A stretch of 64,000 nucleotides of DNA from Taurinivorans muris. GTDB lineage: Bacteria > Desulfobacterota > Desulfovibrionia > Desulfovibrionales > Desulfovibrionaceae. Location of the stretch: positions 1,302,001 to 1,366,000 of the forward strand of contig NZ_CP065938.1 in the NCBI RefSeq assembly GCF_025232395.1, written 5' to 3'. This document shows positions 4,429 to 60,046 of this stretch, piece by piece (positions within the stretch are counted from its first letter, which is position 1; the number at the start of each line of letters is the position of its first letter). The notes under the pieces are model-generated. The model was not told the DNA's origin. It saw nothing but the letters and a program-made list of their open reading frames with translations, and did no database searches. A program made the translations under genes and the position numbers.

Positions 4429-5925
4429 TCAGTTATCCCAAAAATGCCGTTTCCATTCCGCAAAATCCCGTTTGGCACGCTCCGCCATGAGGGTTTTCCT
4501 ATTGGCTTTTTTAGTTTTTTCCTCTAAATCGGGCATAAGTCCGAAATGAATATTCGAGGGCTGGAACTGTTTCATTTGCGCATTTTTCAAATGGTTCATC
4601 AATGCCCCTAACGCCGTTGTCAAAGGCAAATCTTCAAGCTCTTTTCCAAGCAGGCGGCTGGCGAGCTTTATTCCCGCCCATAACCCGCAGGCGGCTGATT
4701 CCACATACCCCTCGACACCTGTGATCTGCCCTGCCAGAAGAATATGTTCATGCCCCTTTATGGCTAAATTGCCGTCCAAGCATTTGGGCGCGTTGACATA
4801 CGTATTCCTGTGCACGGAGCCGTAACGCAAAAATTCCGCATTCTCAAGTCCCGGAACCAAGCGAAAAACACTGTCCTGCGCCTTGTAGGTCATTTTGGTT
4901 TGGCAGCCTACCAAATTAAACGCGTCAGCACTGGCATTTTCCGCCCGCAGCTGCAAAAGGGCGTAAGGGCGCCTGCCGGTTCTCGGATCTGTAAAGCCAA
5001 CAGGCTTCAGAGAACCGAATGTCAGCGTTTTTTCCCCGCGTTCCGCAAGGGCTTCAATGGGCATGCACCCTTCAAAATGCACTTCTTTTTCAAAATTGCG
5101 GGAAGGCACCTTTTCCGCATCAAGCAAAGCCTGATAAAATGCCTCATACTCGAATTTATGCATGGGGCAGTTTAAATAATCGCCGTCGTTTTCTTCCTGC
5201 ATTTCTTGCTGTCCGCCCTTTTCCGCGGCCTGCTTCTGTTTAAATTCCAGCATTTCCGCCTGCATTTTTTCACGCCATTCTTTTGACAATTCCGCACTCC
5301 GCGCAACTTCGTCATTATAAGGCGGCGGTGCGACATTATCATAACGGGAACCGCGGAAAATACTATCCGTATTCAAAGATTCGGCAGAAACAATCGGTGC
5401 AATGGCATCATAAAAATAACAATATTCACTGCCCACGGCAGCGGACAAAGACTGCGCCAAACTTTCGGACGTGAGCGGTCCCGTCGCCAAAACCACATAT
5501 TCCGCCCCGTATTCCGCTTTCAAGGCTTCAATTTCTTCCAAATTCCGCACGCTTTTGCGGATAAGCCGTATATTGGGATTTTCTTCGACTTTTCCTGTCA
5601 GAGCCTTTGCAAATTCTTCCCTGTTCACGGCAAGAGCTTTTCCCGCCGGCACGCTGTGGGCATAGGCAGCAGCCATAACATGGCTGCCCAGTTCGTGCAT
5701 TTCCGCCTGAAGCAGACCGATACCCGAACTTTGCGGACCTTCATCGCGCATGGAACGGAAAGAGTTGGAACAAACCAATTCTCCCAAATATCCGCTCACA
5801 TGGGCGGGAGAAAACTGTATCGGTTTCTGTTCAAACAAAAAAACGGTGATTCCATGTTTCGCCAAATACAAAGCACATTCGCAGCCTGCCAAGCCTCCGC
5901 CGACCACAAGTACGGTTTTCGCCAT
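4429..5925 (-). CDS. trmFO: TrmFO, folate-dependent tRNA m5U54 methyltransferase
   Basis: A 498-residue flavoprotein that methylates U54 of tRNA using methylene-tetrahydrofolate. The N-terminal dinucleotide motif VVGGGLAGCECALYLA, the segment ELVCSNSFRS, and the C-terminal GQITGVEGYVESAACG are diagnostic and separate it from MnmG. The family is usually near 440 residues. The extra length is a charged, Gln/Glu-rich insertion at about residues 197-248, between SRYD and YLNCPM, which looks like a mobile helix or coil. It is transcribed toward the GNAT pseudogene with 9 bases between them. A candidate -10 (TATAAT) lies at 5965-5970 upstream. Confidence 0.95.
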   Translation of the reverse strand: MAKTVLVVGGGLAGCECALYLAKHGITVFLFEQKPIQFSPAHVSGYLGELVCSNSFRSMRDEGPQSSGIGLLQAEMHELGSHVMAAAYAHSVPAGKALAVNREEFAKALTGKVEENPNIRLIRKSVRNLEEIEALKAEYGAEYVVLATGPLTSESLAQSLSAAVGSEYCYFYDAIAPIVSAESLNTDSIFRGSRYDNVAPPPYNDEVARSAELSKEWREKMQAEMLEFKQKQAAEKGGQQEMQEENDGDYLNCPMHKFEYEAFYQALLDAEKVPSRNFEKEVHFEGCMPIEALAERGEKTLTFGSLKPVGFTDPRTGRRPYALLQLRAENASADAFNLVGCQTKMTYKAQDSVFRLVPGLENAEFLRYGSVHRNTYVNAPKCLDGNLAIKGHEHILLAGQITGVEGYVESAACGLWAGIKLASRLLGKELEDLPLTTALGALMNHLKNAQMKQFQPSNIHFGLMPDLEEKTKKANRKTLMAERAKRDFAEWKRHFWDN

Positions 5926-57040: not shown

Positions 57041-57056
57041 AGCAAATACCATGCCA
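57041..57056 (-). promoter_or_regulatory. Sigma-54 promoter of the hook operon
   Basis: On the minus strand TGGCAT-GGTAT-TTGCT has the invariant GG and GC exactly 12 bases apart, very close to the consensus TGGCAC-N5-TTGCW. Transcription would start near 57030, about 15 bases before the fliK ATG. Sigma-54 control of middle flagellar genes is well known in related bacteria. Confidence 0.78.
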
Positions 57057-58876: not shown

Positions 58877-59137
58877 GGACATATCCGACTGCCCGCCAAA
58901 ATTCCGCAATGCCTTCCCCTTTTGCATTTGCCTTCCTTTTTTTCACCCGTTCCGCTTTATTATCAAAAAGAATATGCCGGAAGCACCCTATTGGATGATC
59001 TCCGCCGCTCCGCACGGGCAAATGTGTGTAAAAAAGAAACAATACGGAGTCCAATGTAACATTTTGTCCCATAATTTTATTCTCCAATTCCATACATAAA
59101 AATTGAATATCCAATAATTGCAATATGTTTTTAACTT
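58877..59137. other. Gene-free interval before the secreted protein pair
   Basis: About 260 bases. Short reading frames here have no ribosome site and no conserved features. The only signal seen is the sigma-54-like site at the end of the interval (59138-59153). Confidence 0.4.
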
Positions 59138-59153
59138 TGGTATGCACTTTGCT
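59138..59153 (+). promoter_or_regulatory. Sigma-54-like promoter of the secreted protein pair
   Basis: TGGTAT-GCACT-TTGCT has GG and GC 12 bases apart and keeps the TTGCT of the -12 element. Transcription would begin near 59164, about 30 bases before the ATG at 59193. The -24 half differs from consensus in two positions, so the site is weaker than that of fliK. Confidence 0.6.
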
Positions 59154-59192
59154 ATATTACAGACATACAAAGAAAAATCTCAGGAGCAAACA

Positions 59193-59393
59193 ATGAAAAA
59201 AAATATGATTTTCGCTTCACTGGCACTTACCGCCGCAGTACTTGCCGGCATGAACCATGCATACGCTTATGACTACGGCAACTCCCATAGTGGCATAAAC
59301 CATGAATACGAAGACAACGGAAATACGTACCACCACGGTTTCGGACACGGGCACAGAGAACACGGCGATTGTTATTACGGCAATGCGCAATGA
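59193..59393 (+). CDS. Small secreted His/Gly/Tyr-rich protein
   Basis: A 66-residue protein. A signal peptide covers about residues 1-24 (MIFASLALTAAVLAGM, AYA-YD). The mature part of about 42 residues is rich in His, Gly, Tyr, Asn and Asp (HHGFGHGHREHGD) and has one Cys, which suggests metal binding. Its leader is very similar to that of the next protein, and the His/Gly/Tyr-rich segment resembles that protein's N-terminal part, so it looks like a duplicated and shortened copy. The ribosome site AGGAG is present. The next gene starts 81 bases downstream. Confidence 0.72.
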   Translation: MKKNMIFASLALTAAVLAGMNHAYAYDYGNSHSGINHEYEDNGNTYHHGFGHGHREHGDCYYGNAQ

Positions 59394-59474
59394 CAAATTA
59401 CGTTCACCGTCCAAATACCGGTGATACCTATAACCAAACTCTACTGACAACGAAAAAACAATGAGGAATTATTT

Positions 59475-59993
59475 ATGAAAAAAAGCATGATTTTCGGAAC
59501 ACTGGCAATTATGGCGATGACAGCGGCAGGCGCAGGCATAGCCGGCGCCCATAACCCTTATCATGACGGATACCGCAGCGGATACCACCGCAATTATGAA
59601 TACGGACACGGCAATTACGGCTGCGACGGTTACAGGACCCCCCATATGTTCCGCGGCAGAAACAACGCCTATTACAATGACAATTATCAGGAAAACACAC
59701 TCACAAAAGAACAAATCAGCCAATTGGACGAAATGCGTGAAAAGCACTTCAAAACCATGCAGCCTCTTTTTGAGGAACTTCGTCTAAAAAATATGGAACT
59801 TGACGTATTCCGCAGCAATCCCAATGTAAAACCGGACCAGCTGGACAAACTTGTCAGAGAAATCATTGCGCTTGAAAACAAAGTTGATTCCGAAAGACAA
59901 AATTTCAGAAGCCAAATAGGAGAAAAATTCGGCATTGAATATTCCCGCGGCATGGGCAGACCGATGTACAGAATGTACGATAACGGCAATTAA
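59475..59993 (+). CDS. Periplasmic Spy/ZraP-like metal-stress protein
   Basis: A 172-residue protein with a signal peptide (about 1-25, ending AGA) followed by a His/Tyr/Gly-rich segment of about 45 residues and then a helical domain. The latter includes LTKEQISQLDEMREKHFKTMQPLFEELRLKNMEL and a second helix DQLDKLVREIIALENKVDSERQNFRSQ, as in the Spy, CpxP and ZraP families. ZraP is a zinc-linked periplasmic chaperone whose gene is read from a sigma-54 promoter in enterobacteria, matching the sigma-54-like site upstream. GAGGA precedes the start. Zinc or copper stress is the likely signal, by inference. Confidence 0.8.
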   Translation: MKKSMIFGTLAIMAMTAAGAGIAGAHNPYHDGYRSGYHRNYEYGHGNYGCDGYRTPHMFRGRNNAYYNDNYQENTLTKEQISQLDEMREKHFKTMQPLFEELRLKNMELDVFRSNPNVKPDQLDKLVREIIALENKVDSERQNFRSQIGEKFGIEYSRGMGRPMYRMYDNGN

Positions 59994-60014: not shown

Positions 60015-60046
60015 AAAAAAATCGGGGAAATTCTCCGATTTTTTTT
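60015..60046. terminator. Bidirectional terminator between the ZraP-like gene and the methyltransferase
   Basis: AAAAATCGGGGAA pairs with TTCTCCGATTTTT, with A-rich and T-rich ends, between convergent genes. Confidence 0.85.

Follow-up and report, generated by a model that had tools for sequence, protein, structure and literature searches.

A predicted sigma-54 operon for a His-rich peptide and a ZraP-like protein as a probable second target of a ZraSR-like system in a Desulfovibrionaceae genome

In Escherichia coli, the response regulator (RR) ZraR activates zraP and zraSR with sigma-54, and ChIP-exo has reported zraP, zraSR and mgtA as its direct targets, along with 12 further peaks that are possibly spurious (PMC7657598). 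The signal of ZraSR is debated, being either zinc itself or envelope damage, and the role of the system may be in envelope stress rather than zinc resistance (PMC7657598). ZraP with zinc is reported to damp the system (PMC10848872). In Desulfovibrio vulgaris, Table 1 of PMC4641369 lists the RR DVU3381, with targets DVU3382-DVU3381 and DVU3384, under "Envelope stress response"; PMC3333781 terms the DVU3381 targets hypothetical genes and gives DVU3384 as a target of the RR DVU0621 as well. Neither main text contains a word that starts with zra. In D. alaskensis, copper is reported to lower zraP mRNA (PMC8836040), and a survey of sigma-54 regulons mentions ZraR in Planctomycetota (PMC12316311). 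Among the literature matches listed, we found no report of a His-rich peptide encoded in a ZraP operon, or of ZraP in Desulfovibrio. DVU3384 is probably a ZraP homologue. The DVU3381 regulon resembles the system described below in that a sigma-54 RR acts on the operon that encodes it and on DVU3384.

The locus studied here lies in a 64-kb stretch of DNA, called the window throughout (G000:C1:1302001-1366000; 45.8% GC), from a genome (G000) that consists of one contig of 2,172,708 bases. We read from its layout a two-gene operon on the plus strand at 59193-59993. The sigma-54 promoter, with its -24 and -12 elements (TGGTATGCACTTTGCT, 59138-59153, plus strand), is followed by a gap of 39 nt, ORF1 (59193-59393, a predicted secreted His-rich peptide of 66 aa), a gap of 81 nt and ORF2 (59475-59993, a predicted ZraP-like periplasmic protein of 172 aa). 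Transcription is predicted to start at 59164, 12 nt past the -12 C, and to end at a predicted intrinsic terminator at 60015-60045, a 14-pair stem followed by a T run, a pattern with two matches in the stretch against 1.5 by chance. Upstream lies a gene of the Na+/H+ antiporter family on the same strand, and downstream, on the opposite strand, a methyltransferase gene and genes whose translations read as xerC and dprA. The original prediction, made from the letters of the DNA, had placed TGGTAT-N5-TTGCT just ahead of two secreted proteins, which is where we find it, and its estimate of a start near 59164 agrees with the start predicted from sigma-54 spacing.

The promoter, TGGTAT-GCACT-TTGCT, has the GG and GC elements correctly spaced and differs from TGGCACG-N4-TTGCW by two substitutions, both C to T. 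The genome contains rpoN as well as 15 strong and 3 weak matches to the sigma-54 activator domain, and two predicted sites upstream of the promoter would supply the enhancers that such a promoter needs. Genome-wide, TGGYAYGN4TTGCW has 10 matches in 2,172,708 bases compared to 3 for a reversed control. Others precede genes that we identify from their translations as flagellin, flgF, fliK, lpxC and transporter genes, and one lies 231 nt from uvrA; at least two of the 10 (L016 and L022) fall within genes. With one mismatch permitted, the window holds 4 matches where 2.4 are expected, which is unremarkable, and because this count is near chance the promoter match needs outside support. The promoter letters alone are thus weak evidence, and their force would come from location, the enhancer pair and conservation.

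ORF2 had been expected to be a protein of the Spy/CpxP/ZraP type, and this was borne out by its match to the Pfam family Metal_resist (PF13801; 32.9 bits, cut-off 29.2) and by a profile of six genus proteins, built without enterobacterial rows, which retrieved Salmonella ZraP (3LAY) at E 9e-10. ORF2 as a lone query did not retrieve 3LAY, and NCBIfam at E 0.01 gave no family for ORF1, ORF2 or the genome's own zraP. The AlphaFold model of ORF2 (mean pLDDT 61) contains two good helices, at residues 78-114 and 120-152, and in a Foldseek search with it the 3LAY chains took the top six places (TM by target 0.79-0.87) at E 0.012-0.051, where none of the 522 matches reached E 0.001. Together, these comparisons support grouping ORF2 with ZraP. 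Like 3LAY it appears to have the two-helix core; unlike 3LAY it carries ahead of the core a leader of about 50 residues, rich in His, Gly, Tyr and Asn, with pLDDT below 50.

We asked how often ZraP-like genes of the family stand behind a sigma-54 site. Relatives of ORF2 at E 1e-3 or better were found in 75 of 149 family genomes (100 matches), and stretches were fetched around 88 of the matches, 12 being omitted. The ZraP profile identified 93 ORFs on 82 stretches; after ORF1 and a short ORF in L170 were set aside, 90 of the 91 remaining ORFs could be evaluated. Sites were scored with hand-set weights (maximum 19.5) and counted at a threshold of 17.5 within 20-200 nt upstream. By this measure, 62 of the 90 ZraP-like genes had a sigma-54 site, compared to 7 of 521 control ORFs of at least 200 aa from the same stretches with the window excluded; spurious ORFs among these controls may depress their rate. 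The counts, which include near-duplicates (L056 and L079 come from a single species, and the two G101 copies do not differ), divide into 12 of 14 genes in the genus and 50 of 76 outside it. The genus sites stand 24-53 nt before the start codon, and the two genus genes without a site of their own, ORF2 and the second copy in G086, each come second behind a first gene that has one. Outside the genus, the first scan gave no good site for L080, L081 and L084-L087, and in L087 a sigma-54 site lies further upstream, ahead of two small ORFs.

Expectation maximisation on the 200 nt that precede each of nine promoters in four other species (G086, G101, G039 and G067) yielded a 17-base motif, TGAGTAAAAAAGTAACA, with which the upstream region of the operon was compared; the operon's own genome and a same-species draft, G113, were excluded from training. 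The enhancer words had been noticed by eye before training and were not part of the training set. When both strands of the 64-kb window were scanned, the top two scores fell just upstream of the promoter, on predicted ZraR-type sites 30 nt apart: 21.8 bits for TGTGTAAAAAAGAAACA (59025-59041, plus strand), an exact match to the consensus, and 12.9 bits for TGGGACAAAATGTTACA (59055-59071, minus strand), which is inverted relative to the first; the third score was 10.9 bits. A ZraR-type site within 150 bases upstream had been proposed as a check, and two candidates are thus present. Of the nine training promoters, six have a spacing of 30-32 nt and two a spacing of 20 nt; the ninth carries just one site. 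Three places in the genome match the consensus exactly, namely the zra intergenic region described below, this promoter, and a position within a gene. The motif pattern with up to one mismatch has 55 genome matches compared to 88 in a reversed control, so the loose pattern is meaningless. We read 30 of these 55 as loci, and five had a sigma-54-like word within 300 nt of the motif. Two of the five are the zra-type promoters; the others, L113, L119 and L121, were rejected as further targets, the words being intragenic and no ORF of at least 100 aa starting within 200 nt. One match among the loci read, in L098, has no sigma-54 site nearby and yet scores 17.3, practically as high as the genome's own zraP site. 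In other stretches of this genome (109,513 bases), the best scores besides that of its own zraP site were 15.2, 12.9 and 12.4.

The genus motif is not general in the family, reaching 14 bits or more in 3 of the 50 non-genus genes with a sigma-54 site. Upstream of non-genus genes (L080-L088 and L140-L199) we found TTGCACA or TGTGCAA words in 27 of the 50 with a sigma-54 site compared to 3 of the 26 without; these words are perhaps a second enhancer type, belonging to another RR subfamily.

About 780 kb from the operon, at G000:C1:579757-583662, a second zraP-like gene is divergent from genes for a 574-aa kinase and a 445-aa sigma-54 RR (RR gene, G000:C1:582325-583662), so that the earlier suggestion to look for zraSR in this genome was answered by a zraSR-like pair beside its own zraP. 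The best NCBIfam models for the pair are ZraS for the kinase and ZraR for the RR, at scores below the equivalog cut-offs (288.6 of 479 bits and 567.6 of 760 bits, respectively), and we call the pair ZraSR-like because these cut-offs are missed. Identity to the E. coli proteins is 53.4% for the RR (against ZraR) and 43% for the 242-aa core of the kinase (against ZraS). The arrangement is the one expected of ZraSR, with a sigma-54 promoter and one strong RR-type motif copy (17.4 bits) in the intergenic region between the divergent zraP and the pair. Orthologues of the pair are adjacent to zraP in G086, G101, G039, G067 and G113; in two of these, G101 and G113, the contig stops within the RR gene. 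The kinase carries a His-rich stretch, HSMHSQHRRERFMQH, a possible periplasmic metal site.

We consider it probable, from these comparisons, that the ZraSR-like two-component system of the cell also controls the operon at 59193-59993, as a second target unlinked to its own locus. In favour of this we counted the presence of rpoN, the ZraSR-like pair divergent from zraP, the first and second rank of the two sites in the window, the 17.4-bit site between the genome's own zraP and the pair, the spacing of the two sites, which recurs in most training promoters and in a related E. coli pair, the exact consensus match, the zraP-adjacent orthologues of the ZraSR-like pair in five other genomes, and the family counts of sigma-54 sites (62/90 vs 7/521). 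Against it we counted the missed equivalog cut-offs, an RR elsewhere that is closer to ZraR, the single good motif copy at the genome's own zraP, the loose motif occurring less often than its control, the 17.3-bit match in L098, an overlapping sigma-70-like match, and the lowering of D. alaskensis zraP by copper (PMC8836040).

Two of these points amount to other explanations of how the operon is expressed. The sigma-54 promoter might be driven by another enhancer-binding protein: the genome counts 15 strong matches to the sigma-54 activator domain, and a second RR, in L059 (G000:C1:1633500-1640500), is 58.8% identical to E. coli ZraR, above the zraP-linked RR. The distribution of the motif argues for the latter, as it is present between the genome's own zraP and the zraSR-like pair and in pair-adjacent zraP promoters of four other species, whereas no motif score exceeds 6.1 bits in the 7 kb around the L059 RR. 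In what we assume to be the recognition helix, moreover, the zraP-linked RR has RKTL, as does E. coli ZraR, while the L059 RR has RATL, and we therefore regard control by the L059 RR or another such activator as unlikely. Alternatively, a sigma-70 promoter, TTAACT-16-TATATT (59131-59158), could drive the operon, the sigma-54 match that it overlaps having arisen by chance. It fits at 9 of 12 positions and has TG ahead of the second hexamer, but sigma-70-type matches number three in the stretch against 3.2 by chance, and this explanation, which we find very improbable, would leave both the genus-conserved GG and GC elements and the enhancer pair without a reason.

With the operon as a second target of the ZraSR-like system, periplasmic metal or envelope stress would activate the ZraS-like kinase, and the phosphorylated ZraR-like RR would bind the two sites, which are predicted by comparison, 30 nt apart. 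By analogy with its family, the RR would form an AAA+ ring and open the sigma-54 polymerase waiting at 59138-59153, giving a transcript from about 59164 to 60015-60045 that would encode the secreted His-rich peptide and the ZraP-like chaperone. The chaperone would guard proteins of the periplasm and probably damp the system, as E. coli ZraP with zinc is reported to do; the peptide, judging by its composition, would probably buffer metal.

The circuit resembles E. coli ZraPSR in its sigma-54 promoters and in the divergent arrangement of a zraP-like gene with the genes for a kinase and a sigma-54 RR, and differs from it in the second unlinked target, where a His-rich peptide precedes the ZraP-like gene. 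In the K-12 zraP-zraS region (L134), CGAGTAAAAATGACTCG and TGAGTAAAAATGACTCG are inverted and 31 nt apart. Scored with the genus matrix they reach 7.6 and 8.7 bits, respectively the fifth and second best values in 12 kb, and the best hit in that E. coli stretch, at 14.3 bits, is upstream of the rRNA gene rrsE; the likeness is limited to a GTAAAAA half and the spacing of about 30 nt and does not extend to the whole site. The original prediction had proposed the pairing of zraP, sigma-54 and ZraSR in Desulfobacterota as a conserved circuit. The predicted enhancers and the zraSR-like pair lend support to the pairing itself, but its novelty is reduced: the circuit is of a known kind, since a sigma-54 RR with envelope-stress targets has already been described in D. 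vulgaris (PMC4641369). What this locus appears to add is the second operon with its His-rich peptide and a half-site and spacing common to both phyla, for which no report was found among the literature matches listed. These findings suggest that a ZraPSR-type circuit, down to the enhancer half-site and its spacing, is common to E. coli and another phylum, here with a second operon added. In a sulfide producer, free zinc and copper should be scarce, and of the 55 motif matches, the 30 that we read include only two ZraR-type promoters; such a genome would offer a clean setting for the question of zinc versus envelope damage.

ORF1 begins with a signal-peptide-like sequence and has AGGAG ahead of its ATG. 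His makes up 12% of the whole and 7 of the 41 residues past the presumed signal peptide, and the codon score is best in its own frame (0.17 vs -0.55 and -0.94). Synonymous codon use was tried as proof of coding and was uninformative (-0.01, a value that half of random windows reach). ORF1 and the start of ORF2 have 31 of 37 nt in common, and their whole-length alignments score above all shuffles (0 of 1000; 0 of 500), whereas their mature parts alone show no likeness beyond that of shuffles. The match of ORF1 to the ZraP profile, which has ORF2 among its members, is confined to the signal peptide and the first residues (E 8.9e-4), and within the genus ORF1 is most like the N-terminal part of the second G086 copy (38%, E 2.9e-4). 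ORF1 is thus probably the signal peptide and leader of a truncated ZraP-like duplicate, that is, a cut-down first copy.

Such a remnant could have been kept as a leader whose peptide has no function, a relic of the first gene of a tandem pair. This would concern ORF1 alone and is compatible with the second-target model of regulation. Tandem ZraP-like pairs do occur in G086 and G101, the G086 pair being syntenic with our locus on the downstream side, and the likeness to the start of ORF2 and to the second G086 copy fits such an origin; G113, of the same species, is uninformative because its sole matching contig stops within the antiporter gene. The intact frame, ribosome site, signal peptide, codon score and His enrichment of ORF1 speak against loss of function, as do two relatives that carry other small secreted His- or Met-rich peptides in ZraP-like operons. 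We give the relic a somewhat lower than even chance. A working ORF1 peptide would have a counterpart in the SilE/PcoE type, small periplasmic metal-binding proteins that are secreted, rich in metal ligands and presumably disordered; the two are alike by description, and ORF1 differs in its predicted sigma-54 control.

Small secreted ORFs lie in ZraP-like operons of three other species: a His-rich one in L069 (5088-5252); two 90-aa Met/His-rich ones in L087 (G096; 4454-5076), between the sigma-54 site and the ZraP-like gene; and a 107-aa Gly/Asn-rich one in L088 (G037; between 2999 and 3890), which is weakly rich, with 4 His and 3 Met in 83 residues. None is visibly akin to ORF1. The two G086 ZraP-like genes have between them a 54-aa His-rich ORF with a lipobox-like LTAGC. 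The evidence for recurrence of His/Met-rich peptides is a less strict scan in which 20 loci were read by eye and which gave the window, L069 and L087, with L088 as a weak fourth, and their repeated uptake by ZraP operons is a lead only. An automatic survey of 82 stretches found no enrichment of His/Met/Cys-rich secreted neighbours of ZraP-like genes (2 of 12 near candidates vs 7 of 18 elsewhere), a count that omits ORF1, taken there as a ZraP-profile match, the L088 peptide and one of the two L087 peptides. A broader proposal is that in Desulfovibrionaceae, regulators of the ZraSR-like type control satellite operons where a duplicate of ZraP has been reduced to a secreted His-rich metal sponge, and that small, mutually unrelated secreted peptides rich in His or Met have been added to ZraP operons of the family time and again, so that the periplasm is defended against metal in two parts. 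We put this forward as a doubtful conjecture, and the lack of enrichment in the automatic survey made it slightly more so.

Some further sigma-54 sites were seen along the way. The window has a second one, TGGCATGGTATTTGCT (57041-57056, minus strand), ahead of a fliK-like gene that likely starts at an ATG within the listed ORF; elsewhere in the genome, the presumed flagellin and flgF genes are preceded by sites of the same type. A perfect consensus, TGGCACGGTCCTTGCT (L024 1501-1516; G000:C1:1800360-1800375), lies 231 nt upstream of a UvrA-like gene with a hairpin-like AGGGGAGTTCGGAACCCCT in between, and the two may perhaps mark a sigma-54 small RNA. Another site (L023 1501-1516; G000:C1:1577808-1577823) is 45 nt upstream of an lpxC-like gene; in D. 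vulgaris, Table 1 of PMC4641369 gives DVU2917, of lipid A biosynthesis, as a target of the RR DVU2934.
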